Notes under the pieces: model-generated | Database searches by the model: none | Seen by the model: the letters and a program-made list of their open reading frames with translations, nothing else | Told to the model about the DNA's origin: nothing | From: Jiangella alba | GTDB lineage: Bacteria; Actinomycetota; Actinomycetes; Jiangellales; Jiangellaceae | Direction of reading: 5' to 3' | DNA length: 64,000 bases | Assembly: GCF_900106035.1 (NCBI RefSeq) | Contig: NZ_FNUC01000003.1 | Location: 372,001-436,000 of the forward strand | Translations under genes and position numbers: made by a program | Shown: piece by piece, positions 38,559 to 46,016 of the stretch | Position numbering within the stretch: the stretch's first letter is position 1 | How the letters are laid out: every line of letters begins with the position of its first letter

Positions 38559-39857
38559 ATGGAACTCTCGATGCAGCAGATCCTGGAGAGCCTGGCGCAG
38601 CGGGTGGCGCGGCCGGCCGTGCTCGAGGACCGGTACATGCGGCTGCTCGCGTTCAGCTCGCACGACCGGCCGATCGACGACGTGCGGGAAGACTCCATCC
38701 TGCGCCGGCACGCCTCGTCCGAGGTGCGCGGCTGGCTGAAGCGGTTCGGGCTGCCGAACCTGCGCCGGCCGCTGCGGCTGCCGGCCAACCCCGAGCTGCA
38801 CATGCTGCCGCGGGTCTGCGTCCCCGTCGTCTACCGCGGCAAGCTGCTCGGCCACCTCTGGTTCGTCGACGCCGACGGCAGCATGAGCGACGCCGACCTC
38901 GACGCGTGCGTGCAGGGTGCGGCCGAGCTGGGCGAGTGGCTGCATCGCGAGAGCGTGGCCAGCCTGTTCTCGTCCGCCCGGCTGGCCGACACCATGCACA
39001 TGCTGCTGAGCAGCTCGCCGATGAGCGCCCAGGCCGCCGGCAGCCTCATCGACGCCGGCTACATGCCCGAGCGCGACGGCGTCGTCGCCGTGGTGCTGCA
39101 GGGCGTGCCGCGCCGCTCGTCCGCCGTCGACATCGAGGACGCCCTCGCCCAGGCCGTCGCCGACTTCCGCCGCGTGGTCCGGCGCGGCCAGGCGCTGGAC
39201 CTGATCAGCCGCGACCACGCCGTCCTGCTGCTGTCCTGCGCCGGCGACCACGACATCTACGTCGACGAACGGGTCGAAGGGCTGGTCGAACTGACCCGGT
39301 CCGCGTTGGGCGGCGCCGGGTCCGACGCCGCCCTCGTCGTCGGCGTCGGCAGCCGCCGCGACGCGCTCGAGCACGCCTACGCGTCCTTCCGCGAGGCCCG
39401 CATGTCCGCCGACGCCGCCCGCCTGCTCCCCGGCCTCGGCGACGTCGTGCACTGGTCCCGGCTCGGCATCCACCAGATCGTCGTCAAGCTGGCGTCGCTC
39501 GGCGAGGAGGTGCCGACCGTCCATCCCGGCCTCGGCCACCTGCTCGACGACCCCGACGCGCTGCCGCTGCTGGAGACCCTCGAGACCTACCTCGACGTCG
39601 CGGGCAACGCCCAGCTCACCGCCGAACGCCTCAACCTGCACCGGACGTCGCTGTACTACCGGCTGCAACGGCTGGAGCAGCTCGCCCACACCAACCTCAA
39701 GAGCGGCGCCGAGCGGCTGGCCCTGCACCTGTCGCTCAAGGTGGCACGCATGACCGGCCAGTACGCGCCCCGCCAGGCCGGCCCGGCCGACGCCGCCGTC
39801 CCCGACGCCACCGGCACCGACAACGTCACGCCCTTCCCCGCGGTGGCCTCTCGCTGA
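38559..39857 (+). CDS. PucR/CdaR-type transcriptional regulator
   Basis: 432 residues. The C-terminal helix-turn-helix (LETYLDVAGNAQLTAERL, LHRTSLYYRLQRLE) is the PucR HTH_30 type; a GGDEF-like middle domain and an N-terminal sensor part precede it. ATG 38559 is favoured by GGAGG six bases upstream; a GTG at 38553 overlaps that site. It may activate amino-acid or peptide use. Location after the peptidases and behind a site shared with the hydroxyproline genes suggests a role in the same network. Confidence 0.85.
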   Translation: MELSMQQILESLAQRVARPAVLEDRYMRLLAFSSHDRPIDDVREDSILRRHASSEVRGWLKRFGLPNLRRPLRLPANPELHMLPRVCVPVVYRGKLLGHLWFVDADGSMSDADLDACVQGAAELGEWLHRESVASLFSSARLADTMHMLLSSSPMSAQAAGSLIDAGYMPERDGVVAVVLQGVPRRSSAVDIEDALAQAVADFRRVVRRGQALDLISRDHAVLLLSCAGDHDIYVDERVEGLVELTRSALGGAGSDAALVVGVGSRRDALEHAYASFREARMSADAARLLPGLGDVVHWSRLGIHQIVVKLASLGEEVPTVHPGLGHLLDDPDALPLLETLETYLDVAGNAQLTAERLNLHRTSLYYRLQRLEQLAHTNLKSGAERLALHLSLKVARMTGQYAPRQAGPADAAVPDATGTDNVTPFPAVASR

Positions 39858-39875: not shown

Positions 39876-39931
39876 CCATGATCATCAACCTTTTGGGCTG
39901 CTATGACGACGCAGAAGGTTGATGATCATGG
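39876..39931. terminator. hairpin between PucR gene and convergent M6 copy 4
   Basis: CCATGATCATCAACCTT (39876-39892) and its perfect complement (39915-39931) enclose 22 bases. The stem is unusually AT-rich for this genome, so it could be a dispersed repeat as well as a bidirectional terminator. Confidence 0.65.
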
Positions 39932-40016: not shown

Positions 40017-42377
40017 TCAGTCCGTCGGCAGCTCCGCCGCCAGCGACACGAGTGCGGCGCTGACCAGGGTGCGGGCACCCGTGCCGGCGACGTCCTCGGA
40101 CATCGTCGCGAACCGCTCGAGGGCGCGCTCCGCGCCCCGGCCGCTGGCCCGGTCGGCGATGTCCAGCTGGGCCTTCAGCCGCTGGTGCTCGCCCTGGGTC
40201 AGGAACCCGCCGGACCGGTAGTCCGCGAGCAGGCCGCGGGCGTTGTCGTACCCGGCCTCGACCGAGTCCGCGGTCAGCTCGACCTCGACGGTGACGGTCG
40301 CGTCCGGGTCGGTCTCGCTGGTCGCCGTGACGGTCAGCGTCGCCGTGTCCGAAGCGTCGTCACCGGCCGTGGCGTACGCCCAGACCGGCACCGTCTTGCC
40401 GGCCGCGGCCGCCTTGATCTCGTACGGCAGGCTCACGTCCCAGCCCTCGCCGTCGACCGTCGAGGAGATCCGGTACACGTCCGAGCCGTAGATGCCCGCG
40501 CCGGCCTGACCGGTGTTCGTCAGCGGCAGGTTCACCAGGGCGGTCGAGTCGCCGACGGCGTACGCGGCGGCCTCGCCCAGCGCGGCGCCGCGCGCGTACG
40601 GACCGGCCGCGTCGGTGTTGCGCACCGCGACGTCGTAGAACAGCTCGCCCGCCTTGTCGCGGTAGGTGTCCAGGACGTAGAAGTGCAGCTTGTTCGGCGC
40701 GTCGAGGTACTCGTACTCGCTGCCCGACCCGGTGCCGGCGTGGAACGTCGCGTCGTCCAGCTGACGCGGGTCGCCCTTGACGACGGGCACCGGCTCGCCG
40801 CCGGTCTCGGTGGCGTTGCCCGGCCGGTAGAAGTCGATCCGGCCGATGTCGTTCGGGTTCGCGTCGACCAGCCACGCCCGCGGCGAGCCGCTGTTGCGGG
40901 ACTGGCCGATCAGCACGCCGTGCCCGGCGATGAAGGAGTCGTTGCCGACCCGCTCGACCACCTCGAGGTTGAACTGGTTCCAGGCGGTGCTGCTGGGCGT
41001 GCAGAAGAACGGGTCGTCGGTGCGCGCCTGGCAGGTGCCCGGGACGAACGGGCTGTCCAGCGACACGCTGAGGCCGACCATGTCGCCGTCCGGGATGTAC
41101 TCGCGGCCCTTGAGCGGCGTGACGGCGACACCGTCCTGGGCGAGGCCGGCCCGGGTGAGGCTGACGAACTCCTCCGCCTTGACGACGCCGAGACGGCCCT
41201 GGCCCGTGGTCTTGAAGTACAGCGTGTGGTGCGGGCCGAGCGCCGAGCCGCCCGCGTTCGGGACCTGCCAGCGGTTGTGCGTGCCGCCGGGTCCGTTGAA
41301 CGAGCCGCGGCTCATCATCTCCCAGTAGCCGGTGCCGGCCCGGCCGGTACCCGGGTCGAACGGGTTGTTGTAGTTGTCCGGCAGGCCGCGCAGGTGGCTG
41401 AACTCGTGCGCGAACACGCTGAGGCCGGAGTTCTCCGCCTGGGTGGACGTGCCGCCGCCGGCGTTCGGCCAGTGGTTGGCCGCCGACTGCCACGAGGTCC
41501 ACGGGACGTAACGGGTGGGCACGGCGTTGGGGATCGGGTTGCCGGCCGCGTTGAGGACCGGGCCCTCGGTGGCGCCGGGCGGGCCGAACTCCGGCGTGAC
41601 GTCCGCGGGGGTGCGGAACATCATCTCGCCGAACTCCTGCCAGGTCGACGTCTCGTCGTGGCCGGCGGTCACGTAGAAGCCGTTGTCGAAGCCGCAGAGG
41701 CCCGACTCACAGCCGATGTCGGCCCGCCAGAGCGCGCCGCCGTCGCGCCGGACGTCCTTGTTGCAGGTGTCGCCGGCCGGGCAGATCGAGTTCGGGCCGG
41801 TGACCGGTGCGTGCGACTGCGCGCCGTACTCGTGCAGCTTGCCCGGCATCTGGTAGGGCCCGAACACCTCCACGGTGACGCCGATGCGGCCGTGGCTGGT
41901 CTCCATCCAGTAGCCGTGCAGCGTCTGGCCCTGGTTGTACTCGTTCGGGACGGCGTAGTAGTCGTAGTACCACTGGTTCACCTCGTCGGGCGAGACCGGC
42001 TGCCACGGCGGCAGCGGGTTGCCGAACGGGTGCGACTCCGGTTCCTGGCTGATCAGGAACTTCTGGTCGGTGTACTCCAGCAGGATCACCGCGGTGCGGT
42101 ACTGGCTCTCCGAGCCCTGGCTGGTGGTGTCCTGGTTCCACGCGTCCGGGCGGATCTGCTGGTAGTCGTCCCAGGTCATCTCGGCCTGGTCCTCCCAGAC
42201 CTGCTCGTCGACCGGGACGATGGGCCCGGTGCCGGCGTCGTCGGCCGCACCGTCCTCGGCGTTGGCCGTCACCACTCCGGCCGACGCCGAGAGCGCCAGC
42301 GCCGCCACGCCGACGATCGCTCTGGCCCGCCAAGCCCTCCCGTGTCTCGCGGGCCGCCGTTCTGTCCTCGCCGTCAC
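40017..42377 (-). CDS. secreted M6 metallopeptidase (immune inhibitor A-like), copy 4
   Basis: 786 residues, more distant from copies 1-3. Signal peptide ending at TANA-E. Zinc motif HEFSH at residues 324-328 followed by GLPDNYNNPF, the canonical M6 arrangement. It shares YWEMMSRGSFNGPGG and the beta-rich C-terminal module, then adds a helical tail of about 80 residues (QGEHQRLKAQLDIADRAS) absent from the others. GTG 42377 has GGGAGGG upstream. It is transcribed towards the trio from the other side, next to a subtilase. Confidence 0.88.
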   Translation of the reverse strand: MTARTERRPARHGRAWRARAIVGVAALALSASAGVVTANAEDGAADDAGTGPIVPVDEQVWEDQAEMTWDDYQQIRPDAWNQDTTSQGSESQYRTAVILLEYTDQKFLISQEPESHPFGNPLPPWQPVSPDEVNQWYYDYYAVPNEYNQGQTLHGYWMETSHGRIGVTVEVFGPYQMPGKLHEYGAQSHAPVTGPNSICPAGDTCNKDVRRDGGALWRADIGCESGLCGFDNGFYVTAGHDETSTWQEFGEMMFRTPADVTPEFGPPGATEGPVLNAAGNPIPNAVPTRYVPWTSWQSAANHWPNAGGGTSTQAENSGLSVFAHEFSHLRGLPDNYNNPFDPGTGRAGTGYWEMMSRGSFNGPGGTHNRWQVPNAGGSALGPHHTLYFKTTGQGRLGVVKAEEFVSLTRAGLAQDGVAVTPLKGREYIPDGDMVGLSVSLDSPFVPGTCQARTDDPFFCTPSSTAWNQFNLEVVERVGNDSFIAGHGVLIGQSRNSGSPRAWLVDANPNDIGRIDFYRPGNATETGGEPVPVVKGDPRQLDDATFHAGTGSGSEYEYLDAPNKLHFYVLDTYRDKAGELFYDVAVRNTDAAGPYARGAALGEAAAYAVGDSTALVNLPLTNTGQAGAGIYGSDVYRISSTVDGEGWDVSLPYEIKAAAAGKTVPVWAYATAGDDASDTATLTVTATSETDPDATVTVEVELTADSVEAGYDNARGLLADYRSGGFLTQGEHQRLKAQLDIADRASGRGAERALERFATMSEDVAGTGARTLVSAALVSLAAELPTD

Positions 42378-42496
42378 TGCGCCCTCCCATGGGTAGACGC
42401 CGGTCCGCGGGGGTCTGCGGACCGGTCCGGCGACCGTAGGCCGGGGTGTGGCCCACGGTCACCGGACAGGTGCATGGAGATCGGCCGCGTCAGTCG

Positions 42497-42506
42497 GACA
42501 TCTGTC
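42497..42506. promoter_or_regulatory. GACATCTGTC element upstream of M6 copy 4
   Basis: This near-palindrome (GACA-TC-TGTC) lies 120 bases before the M6 start and recurs exactly at 44891-44900 upstream of the neighbouring subtilase gene. Confidence 0.35.
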
Positions 42507-42513
42507 GGGTCCC

Positions 42514-42679
42514 TAGGGTGTGTCTCCCAAGTCCATGGCCTACTGCGCGACGCCCAGGCGGCGCCTCGCGGCGTTCTCGTCAGTCGTCATAGAACCCCGC
42601 TATGACTCCCTCCTCGCACCTTGCGAGGCATCCACCTGGACGCCGCTCGCTACGGCCGAGTCTCGGGAGACGCACCCTA
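42514..42679. mobile_element. MITE-like hairpin element at the 3' end of the subtilase gene
   Basis: 166 bp with terminal inverted repeats TAGGGTGTGTCTCCC (42514-42528) and the inverse of TAGGGTGCGTCTCCC (42665-42679), 14 of 15 matching. The interior folds back on itself around GTCATAG-loop-CTATGAC near 42588-42608, so the whole element is one long imperfect hairpin. It has no transposase. The subtilase stop codon TAG (42677-42679) lies in its right end. Confidence 0.7.
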
Positions 42680-44788
42680 ACCCCGGCCCCGGTTGTCGAT
42701 GGTGATCGACCGGGTCGCCTCGGTGTTGTCGTTGCGGTCGTTGGAGCGGTACTGGAGGGTGTGCACGCCCGGTCCACGGAACCGGAACGGCTCGGTGTAG
42801 GTGTGCCAGGGGCCGGTGCCGTCGACGCGGTACATGACCCGGTTGACGCCCGAGCCCCACGAGTCGTCGGCGGTCAGCGTGATCGTCGGGTTGGTGTACC
42901 GGCCCTCGCGGTCCGGGCGCTGGTTCAGTGTCAGCACCGTCGTCGGCGCGTCGACCTCGATGGAGCGCAGCGCCGCCCGCAGGTCCGGCCGCGGCCCGAT
43001 GTTCTGGTGCGCGTTCGTGGTCTGCGGCGCGCCGGTCGCCCGCAGCAGGTCGTTGATCTGCGCGGTCGTCCACGGGCCGAGACCGACGGACGTGACGTAG
43101 GACTGCACGGCGACGACGGCGTTGGTGACGATCGGGCCGGCGCCGGACGTGCCGCTGAACGAGCGCGAGTAGGCCCGGTTGTGGTCGTTGCCCAGCTCGG
43201 CGCAGAGCACGTTGCAGTAGCCGGTCGTGTAGATGTCCTGACCCCACGCCTGCAGGTCGAAGCGCTGGCCGTAGTTCGAGAAGCTCAGCCGCGCCCGCGC
43301 CGGGTCGTTGGCGCGCAGGCCGCTGCCGCCGGCGCCGGCGAAGATCGCGCCGGAGTGCTGGACGGCGGGGTCGAACCACTTGACCCCGTTGAGCGTGTAC
43401 ATCGGGTCGTCGGTGTCGGTGTTGCCGTTGCCGCCGGTGAGGACGACGTTCGCGCCCATCGCCGTCAGCACCTTGTTGGCCTCGAAGACCGCCGGGATCC
43501 ACTCCAGCGGCGCGTACCGGCTGCCGCCGAGCGGGCTGCCGGTCTGCTGCTCCAGGATCAGCGCGTCGCCGGGACGGACGAACGGCCGGCCGGCCTCGTC
43601 ACGCAGCGTCGCGACGAATGCCAGCGCCGGGCCGGGCCGCCACGACGTCCGGCCGTTGCCGAGGTCCTCGACCGGCGAGATGCCGTAGATGTCGACGTCC
43701 GGCACGCCGCCGGTGACGCCGTAGCCGTTGTCCTTCGCGGCGATCTCGCCGAACACCGCGGTGCCGTGGTCGTCGCCGAAGGTGTCGATGCGGACGAACC
43801 GGCCCTGGCCGATGTCGCTGGACCAGTCCAGCTGCAGGTCCTCGTGGAACGGGTTCCAGTTGTACTCGAGGTCGATCACCCGGATGCCGGCGCCGCGGAC
43901 CCGGGGGTCGCTGCGGACCAGCTCGGCGTCGATGCCGTTGTGGGTGTCGGACGGGCGCAGGTAGCCCTGCAGCGGGGTGAGGTCCGGCGTCGGCTCGGCG
44001 GGCGGCGGGGCCGGCTCCGGCGACGGGTAGGCGTAGACGACCTCGGGCAGCGCCGTCAGCTCGGCCAGGACGGCGTCGACGTCGGCGCCGGCCGGCAGCA
44101 GCGCCGTGTACCAGGACGCGAGGTCCGGCAGCGGCTCCGCGGAGCGGGCCTGCGCCCGGCTGGTGGCGGCCGCGAGGTCGTCGACCTGGCCGGGCTCGAC
44201 GAACGGAATGAGAGCGCTCACATCGTGCCGGTCGAGGATGCCGCGGACGTCGTCCAGGCTCGCGCCCGTGGTGCTGCGCAACGTGGCCTCGCTGCCGCCG
44301 CGGACCCGGTAGCCCTCGGCGAACTTGAGCTCCAGGCTGACCTCGGGCTGGACGGCCGCCGCGCCGCCCACCTCCGCACCGTCAGCGGTGCTGGCGGTGA
44401 CCCGCAGGGCGCCTGTCGACGGCGTCAGGTCGCCGGCCGCGGCCAGCTGCTGCTTGTCGACGTGGACGACGAGGTCGTCGGCGCCGTCGCCGTCGACGTC
44501 GTTGACGGAGCCGATGACGGCGCCGGACTCGGACCGGGCCGCCGCGACCTCGCCGACGGCGACGGTGTCGAGGTCGATCTCCGTGACGTCCACGGCCGGT
44601 GAGCCGTGCACCGTCACCGGGATCAGGCCGGGGCCGGCGAGGTTGACGTGGCCGGACAGCCCGGCCGAGACGTCGACCTCGACGCCTGGGCGGTCGGACG
44701 GCCCGGCCTGTGCGGGCGGGGCGAGGAGGGCGTAGCCCGTCACCGCGAGGGTGCCGAGCGCCACGCCCGCTCGGAAGCGTCGTGTCAT
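42677..44788 (-). CDS. secreted S8 subtilase-family serine peptidase
   Basis: 703 residues. Signal peptide ending at AQA-G, an N-terminal beta/propeptide region of about 280 residues, a Pro-rich linker (PAPPPAEPTPD), then the peptidase. Triad: Asp306 (VIDLEYNW), His341 (DDHGTAV) and Ser548 (SGTSGAGPIV); the DSG motif is replaced by D-L-E, so this is a divergent branch. A C-terminal OmpL47/Ig-like module (TADDSWGSGVNRVMYRVDG) breaks off at ITIDNRGRG. The stop lies within a MITE-like repeat, so the C-terminus may be truncated. ATG 44788 has AAGGAG upstream. Confidence 0.87.
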   Translation of the reverse strand: MTRRFRAGVALGTLAVTGYALLAPPAQAGPSDRPGVEVDVSAGLSGHVNLAGPGLIPVTVHGSPAVDVTEIDLDTVAVGEVAAARSESGAVIGSVNDVDGDGADDLVVHVDKQQLAAAGDLTPSTGALRVTASTADGAEVGGAAAVQPEVSLELKFAEGYRVRGGSEATLRSTTGASLDDVRGILDRHDVSALIPFVEPGQVDDLAAATSRAQARSAEPLPDLASWYTALLPAGADVDAVLAELTALPEVVYAYPSPEPAPPPAEPTPDLTPLQGYLRPSDTHNGIDAELVRSDPRVRGAGIRVIDLEYNWNPFHEDLQLDWSSDIGQGRFVRIDTFGDDHGTAVFGEIAAKDNGYGVTGGVPDVDIYGISPVEDLGNGRTSWRPGPALAFVATLRDEAGRPFVRPGDALILEQQTGSPLGGSRYAPLEWIPAVFEANKVLTAMGANVVLTGGNGNTDTDDPMYTLNGVKWFDPAVQHSGAIFAGAGGSGLRANDPARARLSFSNYGQRFDLQAWGQDIYTTGYCNVLCAELGNDHNRAYSRSFSGTSGAGPIVTNAVVAVQSYVTSVGLGPWTTAQINDLLRATGAPQTTNAHQNIGPRPDLRAALRSIEVDAPTTVLTLNQRPDREGRYTNPTITLTADDSWGSGVNRVMYRVDGTGPWHTYTEPFRFRGPGVHTLQYRSNDRNDNTEATRSITIDNRGRG

Positions 44789-44827
44789 GGGGGTCTCCTT
44801 GTCGCCGGGGGACGGGGATTGCGCCCG

Positions 44828-44856
44828 AACATAGGGAAACCCGGATGAATGGTCAC
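44828..44856 (-). promoter_or_regulatory. promoter of the second subtilase
   Basis: On the minus strand GTGACC (44856-44851) and TATGTT (44833-44828) are 17 bases apart, about 40 bases before the ATG. Confidence 0.5.
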
Positions 44857-44890
44857 CACGCATGTGTCTGAAACCCCGCGGCGGCGGGCC

Positions 44891-44900: not shown

Positions 44901-44904
44901 CTAG

Positions 44905-45899
44905 ATGAGTGAGCCCTATTGATCTTGTGGGTGTGTCGCTGTCGATAGACATGGGTGGAGGGCGTCGAGGATCAGTGTGTGAGCAATGATCTTGACGCCC
45001 TCCTGACCGCACTCTATGTCCATGTCGAGGATCGTGTCTTCCCGGTGTTGGGGTGGTCGCGTGATCACCGGCCGGGCCGCAAGCCGGGGCTGTCCGACGG
45101 TGAACTGATCACCCTGGCGGTGGCGCAGCAGCTGCTCGGCGTGGCGTCGGAACGGCGGTGGGTCCGGTTTGCGCGCGCCCGGCTGGGCGGACTGTTCCCC
45201 TACCTGCCCGGCCAGTCTGGATACGGCAAACGACTCCGGTCCTTGGGAGGGCTGCTCGCCGCGGTCATCACCGAACTGGCCCGGGACACGCCGTCCTGGC
45301 ACGACGATCTGCGGCTGCTGGATTCCACCCCGCTGCCGTGCGCGGCGTCGCGGGAGACGGTGAAGCGCTCGGACCTGGCCGGGCACGCCGGTTACGGCTA
45401 CTGCGCCAGTCACTCGCGGTTCTTCTGGGGATTCCGGCTCTACCTGGTCACCACCGCCGAGGGCATGCCGATCATCTGGGGTCTGGCCAACCCCAAGATC
45501 GGCGAACGCGACGCCGCCCGGGCGCTCCTCGACCACGACCACCACCTCGTCGCGTCCGGGCAGGTCATCCTCGCCGACAAAGGGTTCGCCGGGCGCGACT
45601 TCGACCAGTTCGTCACCAGCCTGGGCGCGCACCTGATCCGGCCCGACCGCAAAGACGAACCGACCAGACGGGGCAAACTGGCCCGGGTCCGCCAATGGAT
45701 CGAAGCCGTCTTCGACACCCTGAAAGGTCAGCTCACCCTCGAGGAACACGGCGCCCGCACCCTGAACGGAGTCCACGCCCGCATCGCCGCACGACTACTC
45801 GCCCTCGCCACCGCGATCTGGCACAACTGGCACACCGGCACCCAAGCCAAACGATCCCTGATCGCCTACGACCACTAACGATCAATCGGACTCACTCAT
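44905..45899 (+). mobile_element. IS982-family insertion sequence
   Basis: About 995 bp. Ends ATGAGTGAGCCCTATTGATC (44905-44924) and the inverse of ATGAGTGAGTCCGATTGATC (45880-45899) agree at 18 of 20 positions. CTAG flanks both sides (44901-44904 and 45900-45903), a possible 4-bp target duplication or part of the ends. The transposase frame is intact, so the element may be active. Confidence 0.8.
44979..45878 (+). CDS. IS982-type transposase
   Basis: 299 residues from the preferred GTG at 44979 (a GTG at 44955 would add eight). Family traits are the N-terminal helical part with LLGVASERRWVRF, then the DDE catalytic region: LLDSTPLPCAAS (first Asp), ILADKGFAG (second Asp) and RQWIEAVFDTLK (Glu). 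No frameshift is seen. It lies upstream of, and divergent from, the subtilase gene. Confidence 0.85.
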   Translation: MSNDLDALLTALYVHVEDRVFPVLGWSRDHRPGRKPGLSDGELITLAVAQQLLGVASERRWVRFARARLGGLFPYLPGQSGYGKRLRSLGGLLAAVITELARDTPSWHDDLRLLDSTPLPCAASRETVKRSDLAGHAGYGYCASHSRFFWGFRLYLVTTAEGMPIIWGLANPKIGERDAARALLDHDHHLVASGQVILADKGFAGRDFDQFVTSLGAHLIRPDRKDEPTRRGKLARVRQWIEAVFDTLKGQLTLEEHGARTLNGVHARIAARLLALATAIWHNWHTGTQAKRSLIAYDH

Positions 45900-46016
45900 C
45901 TAGTGGCGGCGATGAGAGCTGTCTCACCGCCGGCTCACGCTGTGCCGCGGCGTGCTCCGGAACGCTCGGACGCAGAGAGCCGGCGCCCCCGCCGGCCGCT
46001 GCGAAGGGACAGGACC

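Follow-up and report, generated by a model that had tools for sequence, protein, structure and literature searches.

A genus-wide family of palindromic MITEs in Jiangella whose ends form TAG stop codons at many insertion sites

The fold-back element at the 3' end of a secreted subtilase gene in the window (the whole stretch of 64,000 nucleotides of Jiangella alba DNA analysed here) probably belongs to a genus-wide family of MITEs that is moved in trans by an IS5-family, IS427-like transposase, duplicates a 2-bp TA within CTAG-like targets and rebuilds TAG stop codons with its ends. This reading draws on copies of the element, on the positions of stop codons at their junctions, on empty sites in related genomes and on insertion sequences (ISs) whose ends have nearly the same sequence. 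In the proposed mechanism, the family would consist of non-autonomous DNA transposons of ~162 bp, almost all palindrome. These would behave as selfish elements whose target word, CTAG, is very rare, lies mostly outside gene bodies and forms a TAG stop about a quarter of the time, and whose first base restores the stop. Because G begins the element in both directions, an outer TA and this G would give an in-frame TAG on the side of the gene, or on both sides between convergent genes; with TAG thus rebuilt at the junction, insertion into a stop codon would leave the protein unchanged or nearly so.

The element, its copies and the subtilase gene

The initial annotation described a 166-bp fold-back element with 15-bp terminal inverted repeats at 42514-42679, and this description held: the ends, TAGGGTGTGTCTCCC and TAGGGTGCGTCTCCC, match at 14 of 15 positions when the first 15 nt are compared with the reverse complement of the last 15. 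Folding of the minus strand as RNA gave a single long hairpin of -106.4 kcal/mol (z -8.9; none of 200 shuffles equalled it), and folding of the plus strand as DNA gave a z of -4.8, again unmatched by any of 200 shuffles. The arms were missed by a first inverted-repeat search of 42300-42900, and Rfam yielded two matches only, with E values of 4 and 6.7, both far under their gathering scores. The TA at either extremity is most plausibly a target duplication, so that the element proper would be 162 bp long (Table 1).

Table 1. Features at the fold-back element and in the adjoining genes of the window
Feature	Position	Strand	Basis or remark
MITE proper, GGGTGTGTCTCCC...GGGAGACGCACCC	42516..42677	.	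Palindrome over nearly the whole length; copies, folds and end comparison
TA, left copy of presumed 2-bp target duplication	42514..42515	+	Presumed for this copy; empty sites of four other copies in relatives read CTAG
TA, right copy of presumed target duplication	42678..42679	+	Letters 1-2 of the subtilase stop codon (minus strand); presumed for this copy
TAG, subtilase stop codon	42677..42679	-	Outer TA plus terminal G of the element
Left terminal inverted repeat region	42516..42530	+	Resembles ends of IS5/IS427-like ISs (GGGCGTGTCTCYTAAGTC)
Right terminal inverted repeat region	42663..42677	-	End comparison
Secreted subtilase (Peptidase_S8) with C-terminal Ig-like module	42677..44863	-	ORF; true start likely at residue 26 (MTRRFRAG...)
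M6 (immune inhibitor A-like) metalloprotease	40017..42377	-	Next gene downstream, same strand; ORF and Pfam match

In the genome of the window (G000), 24 matches to the element were found, and it is therefore a member of a dispersed repeat family rather than a single hairpin. Sixteen of the matches cover at least 140 of the 166 nt at 90-100% identity. The search for other copies proposed in the annotation was thus successful, and these 16 full-length copies, with their near-identical inverted ends, bear out its description of the element as MITE-like. The element is short, non-coding, multicopy and dispersed, has terminal inverted repeats and empty sites in relatives, and shares its ends with an autonomous element, as MITEs do.

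Among the matches listed in a search of 12 Jiangella genomes, in which up to 40 candidates were scored per genome and counts are lower bounds, the element was matched in at least 10 genomes and was near full length in at least seven; G003 and G009 had no match, and G004, G006 and G007 had short or weak matches only. An order-wide search gave matches in 15 of 22 genomes, the extra five all belonging to one sister genus and being diverged. Variants with a similar core and other ends were also recovered (L020, L022, L097, L104, L199, L200); L199 and L200, the two from the sister genus, are flanked by CTAG despite their different ends, as though families had swapped ends. Short versions of ~38-91 bp, at least 15 in number, contain hardly anything besides the two ends (L108-L114, L116, L119, L120, L122-L124, L135, L136) and therefore suggest frequent internal deletion of the palindrome. 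Four versions in G008 (L126, L127, L141, L147) contain a second palindrome (GATCAGGTGAC...GTCACCTGATC) nested in the loop. At L128 (G000 C4:166000-175000), two MITE copies lie 1.8 kb apart; the flank of one starts with the end sequence of an IS that is also present in the window (described below), and the MITE and this IS appear to share a CTAG junction.

As annotated, the TAG of the subtilase lies inside the right end of the element. It had further been proposed that the insertion cut off a C-terminal domain, and it is indeed with an Ig-like module that the protein terminates at the element. Ten of 11 further Jiangella genomes encode an orthologous subtilase with 77-94% identity (G003 has a weak domain match only), and the element is absent from the subtilase site at all 10 orthologous loci. 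All 10 orthologues end in ...NRGR(G/D/N)(D/E) followed by TGA, one residue past the ...NRGRG TAG of the window; the nearest relative, G010, reads GGC GAC TGA and the window GGT TAG. Loss of a domain is thus refuted within the genus and is extremely improbable, the comparison with homologues suggested in the annotation having shown that proteins encoded without the element end at the same place, give or take one residue. For the C-terminal module itself, the protein of the window and its G010 orthologue share one weak, below-cut-off Pfam match, to Big_7. Judged from these alignments, the insertion, together with any changes before or after it, appears to have altered one residue and the type of stop codon. 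For annotation, the case warns against taking a transposon-borne stop codon as a sign of a truncated protein.

The sequence of the subtilase site before insertion, including an ancestral TAG, is a presumption: a TA target would predict TTAGGG, against CGACTG or CGAGTG in relatives whose flanks are close. In the orthologues from G001 and G006, an in-frame stop near the start of the aligned stretch precedes the methionine at residue 26, which therefore fits as the true start. The hairpin sits between the subtilase gene and the M6 metalloprotease gene and could lower their co-transcription. An IS at 44901-45903, ~40 bp upstream of the listed subtilase ATG, has a DDE_Tnp_1 transposase ORF (44955-45878) and 13-bp ends (CTAGATGAGTGAG) and is absent from the four relatives compared; with the MITE at the 3' end, mobile elements therefore flank the subtilase on both ends. 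Elsewhere in the window, a short inverted repeat (ATGATCATCAACCTT...AAGGTTGATGATCAT) at 39879-39931, just past an ORF ending at 39857, is possibly a terminator.

Target sites and stop codons at insertion junctions

Genes at the junctions were predicted with a codon-score gene finder trained on 304 kb of the own genome (65,381 codons) and are not curated annotation. The analysis took in 70 of the 74 near-full-length matches listed (G002:C59:1181, G005:C12:323831, G008:C39:65 and G008:C7:47 were left out); three copies with unrecognised ends (L247, L274, L297) were dropped, and the remaining 67 copies were reduced to 62 distinct sites in seven genomes by merging of orthologous pairs. At 37 of these sites a predicted gene terminates in frame at the junction TAG (36 before the register of L245 was moved by one base; 35 to 38 across score cut-offs), and at six of the 37 there is a stop on both sides, i.e., the element lies between convergent genes. 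Reading from outside into each end, 43 read-ins were in the TAG frame, versus 4 and 3 in the other frames, and 8 further read-ins were in the TAG frame at ends where TA has decayed.

CTAG is scarce in these genomes. In 304 kb of the own genome, the G+C content of which is 73%, it was observed 60 times versus 729 expected from base composition, with 14 occurrences forming predicted stops and 3 lying inside genes; in 400 kb of G011, the corresponding numbers were 81 (stretch ends left out) versus 1006, with 20 stops and 8 inside genes. As controls for the junctions, CTAG sites were stops in 14 of 59 cases in the own genome, the window's own element being excluded, and in 20 of 81 in G011, where sites less than 600 bases from stretch ends were excluded. 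The share of stops at element sites exceeds that of both controls pooled (Fisher p = 2e-6). Two of eight ISs with both ends readable (14 loci scanned) lie at stops, a difference from the MITE with p = 0.13 that rests on few loci, and two of the four variant MITEs with readable ends (L020, L022, L097, L104) do so, one with TAG and one with TAA.

The consequences for proteins were assessed at 17 junction genes (10 in G011 and 7 in the own genome) by comparison with two or three relatives per gene, TAG, TGA or TAA being counted as the same codon. In 13 of the 17, one or more element-free relatives stop at precisely that codon, and insertion therefore seldom changes the protein much; at the other four (L248, L252, L254, L255), the offset between the ends is 2 to 12 residues. 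At L249, L288, L292, L295 and the subtilase, some relatives have TGA in place of the TAG of the filled gene; such sites may once have been TAG stops, or else targets without TA in which TAG arose later. Since most copies form the stop of a neighbouring gene, the element can spread with little harm to proteins. The family thus illustrates low-cost spread in a compact, gene-dense genome, through a rare target that lies mostly outside gene bodies and ends that restore the signal that is hit.

Empty sites in relatives were used to characterize the target. For all 16 own-genome copies L002-L017, the left flank was located in G010, at 94-98% identity in 14 cases, 88% for L008 and 85% for L010. In the comparison of empty sites, for which the rows of L001, L012 and L014 were read by eye, CTAG stands in at least one relative for L003, L004, L007 and L015, although one of three relatives reads CGAG at L015. 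At L012, G010 and G008 retain a remnant of ~12 bases of the right end, which therefore marks an old insertion that has decayed there. A 2-bp duplication may be the rule, and 32 of the 62 sites have TA at both ends. Counting against it, TA is missing from one or both ends at the other 30, and several empty sites are not CTAG: they read CTCG (L002, L010), CTGG (L013), CTGA (L006, L011), GCAG (L008) or GTCAG (L016). At several sites, such as L013 and L016, the flanks are inverted rather than direct copies, for which template switching between the arms of the element may account.

The origin of the excess of stops was considered with regard to the age of copies. Over 161 bases, seven copies in G011 have the same sequence and another has a single difference; all eight lie at stops. 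The site of one of them, L250, is also occupied in G001, so this copy is not clearly recent as an insertion; without it, seven of seven lie at stops, with p = 1e-4 against the 20 of 81 control CTAG sites. Copies with three or fewer differences from a sibling in the same genome lie at stops in 15 of 19 cases, or 7 of 11 outside G011, and other copies in 26 of 48. Recent copies, above all those of G011, thus exceed the stop share of CTAG, which may stem from a targeting bias, from very fast loss of other insertions, or from a benefit of the hairpin at gene ends.

That the bias arises only after insertion, with landings in promoters and at other intergenic CTAG sites being purged and TA being conserved where it is part of a stop, has somewhat less than an even chance of being correct. 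It would account for the scarcity of sites flanked by divergent genes (6 of 59 classified, versus 14 of 53 controls, p = 0.03), for the association of TA on both ends with stops (27 of 32 such sites, versus 10 of the remaining 30) and for the share among recent copies outside G011, which is less extreme than in that genome. It does not readily account for the near-identical, apparently recent G011 copies, which are at stops in all eight cases, the shared one included, versus 20 of 81 controls. The converse proposal, that the family seeks stop codons, its targeting or delivery favouring TAG stops more than the availability of CTAG would explain and its ends, which start with G, rebuilding TAG on both sides, is advanced tentatively and is open to considerable doubt. 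If it were true, the stop codon would be a safe harbour, even between overlapping convergent stops. Counting against the stop-rebuilding mechanism as a whole, the share of copies at stops varies among genomes: 9 of 15 in G000, 8 of 16 in G010, 10 of 10 in G011, 8 of 11 in G001, 2 of 2 in G002, 1 of 3 in G005 and 3 of 10 in G008.

The hairpin arms and the partner transposase

The two arms of the palindrome co-vary. Among 64 distinct copies and 60 stem pairs, 71 cells contain compensatory double changes, versus a shuffled mean of 22 (maximum 32 in 500) and 0 to 27 when the pairing was slid by 1 to 3 columns, while 143 cells change on one side only and 28 on both sides without pairing; kinship among copies inflates all of these counts. 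L256 and L257 of G011 are otherwise the same element, in which a stretch of one arm has been replaced by the complement of the other. Template switching at quasi-palindromes is described as copying one arm to the other in the parts consulted of three reports (PMC7202029, PMC8604942, PMC8794818). Because this process also yields arm copying, co-variation is not by itself evidence of a functional RNA, and the arms apparently co-vary by arm-to-arm copying.

This evidence bears on the possibility that the hairpin persists at the ends of genes because it terminates transcription or protects mRNA 3' ends, its position at stops being due to functional selection. The great stability of the RNA hairpin and the co-variation would be expected of such a role, as would the location of 29 of 62 sites between gene 3' ends and only 6 between 5' ends, compared with 14 and 14 of 58 CTAG controls in the own genome and 19 and 17 of 81 in G011. 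However, the stem lacks a following run of U, few sites are common to species (5 orthologous pairs among 67 copies), many copies have shrunk to short remnants, and the template switching seen at L256 and L257 predicts the co-variation as well, so that a function of this kind is unlikely to explain the distribution.

The reading of the family as MITEs moved in trans is based on ISs with matching ends. G007 has a ~1-kb IS5-family IS with two overlapping ORFs (PF13340 and PF01609); at L194, these domains were found in ORFs 909-1322 and 386-1171, which indicates an IS4/5-type DDE transposase in two overlapping ORFs. The IS5-family ISs of G007 end in CTAGGGCGTGTCTCYTAAGTC; read inwards, the IS ends are CTAGGGCGTGTCTCTTAAGTC and CTAGGGCGTGTCTCCTAAGTC, and the MITE reads TAGGGTGTGTCTCCCAAGTC. 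Near-identical ends occur in G007 on the IS5-type ISs L201 and L213 and at one end of L222, and a second IS lineage there has one end reading CTAGGGTGTGTCTCCCATAT. A five-copy IS in G010 (L208) ends in CTAGGGAGTGTCTGACGGATC, like the variant MITE L020 (CTAGGGGGTGTCTGACGGAT). Finally, G011 contains a 91-bp hybrid in which the left 55 nt of the G007 IS (54 of 55 identical) are followed by the right end of the MITE (34 of 36), and the left side of this hybrid also reads in the stop frame. The partner IS probably belongs to the IS427 group, in keeping with the published description of the group (PMC3281130).

Counting against an IS5-family partner, G007, the genome with the matching ISs, has one weak MITE match among the matches listed. 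A 116-residue query found no IS5-type transposase match in the own genome or in G011, a draft, and end pairs spaced at 0.6-4.5 kb in the own genome comprised only a pair of adjacent MITE copies (2.1 kb) and a single hit, with two mismatches, at a distance of 4 kb from a MITE; the own-genome copies therefore look orphaned. Two other candidates were rejected. An IS630 partner was suggested by the TA ends, but PF13358 had no match in the own genome and eight of its 10 matches lay in G007; scanning of these G007 loci revealed the neighbouring IS5-type IS with matching ends. The IS upstream of the subtilase in the window was set aside because its ends differ beyond CTAG. A single-strand hairpin element (IS200/IS605, PATE- or REP-like) would also have a hairpin structure and would fit the lack of a clean TA duplication at about half of the sites. 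Such an origin is very unlikely, given the matched inverted ends, the TA at both ends of 32 of 62 sites, the CTAG targets and the DDE-type IS5 elements that bear nearly the same ends.

Comparison with known systems

Small repeats inserted at the junctions of stop and start codons are familiar in actinobacteria from the MIRU of mycobacteria. MIRU differ from the present family in sequence and target (DTGA, at sites of translational coupling) and have no palindrome with IS5 ends. A close parallel is with ISs of the IS5-family IS427 group and their MITEs, which likewise have terminal inverted repeats and, in the IS, two overlapping ORFs; 10 of 11 IS427-group ISs are given with 2-bp repeats in the parts of Table 2 consulted (PMC3281130). 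Unlike those MITEs, the Jiangella element is palindromic as a whole, its ends rebuild a TAG stop, and no partner transposase was detected in its own genome.

In the portion of the literature covered by a search that left out most subscription journals, no earlier report was found of a MITE that systematically rebuilds stop codons, and the terms 'stop codon' and 'CTAG' have 0 occurrences in a review of prokaryotic MITEs (PMC10969869). Excerpts of individual reports nevertheless offer partial likenesses. ISMysh01 of Mycobacterium shottsii is an actinobacterial IS5-family element with CTAG direct repeats, and related IS427-type elements are present in other actinobacteria; it differs in being an autonomous IS with a single ORF and a 4-bp CTAG repeat, and stop codons go unmentioned in the sections consulted (PMC9241763). 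MITEAba12 of Acinetobacter is moved in trans by ISAba12, which has the same ends, and one copy is fused to the 3' end of a gene; it differs in its 9-bp duplication and in that the fusion shortens the protein by 398 residues and the stop is not kept, according to the part of the report available (PMC6382973). QMITE2 of Coxiella, as described in extracts of PMC5896051, is a MITE at the 3' end of a gene that affects the stop, and differs in that it adds 33 residues to EnhC in one strain and is a single case.
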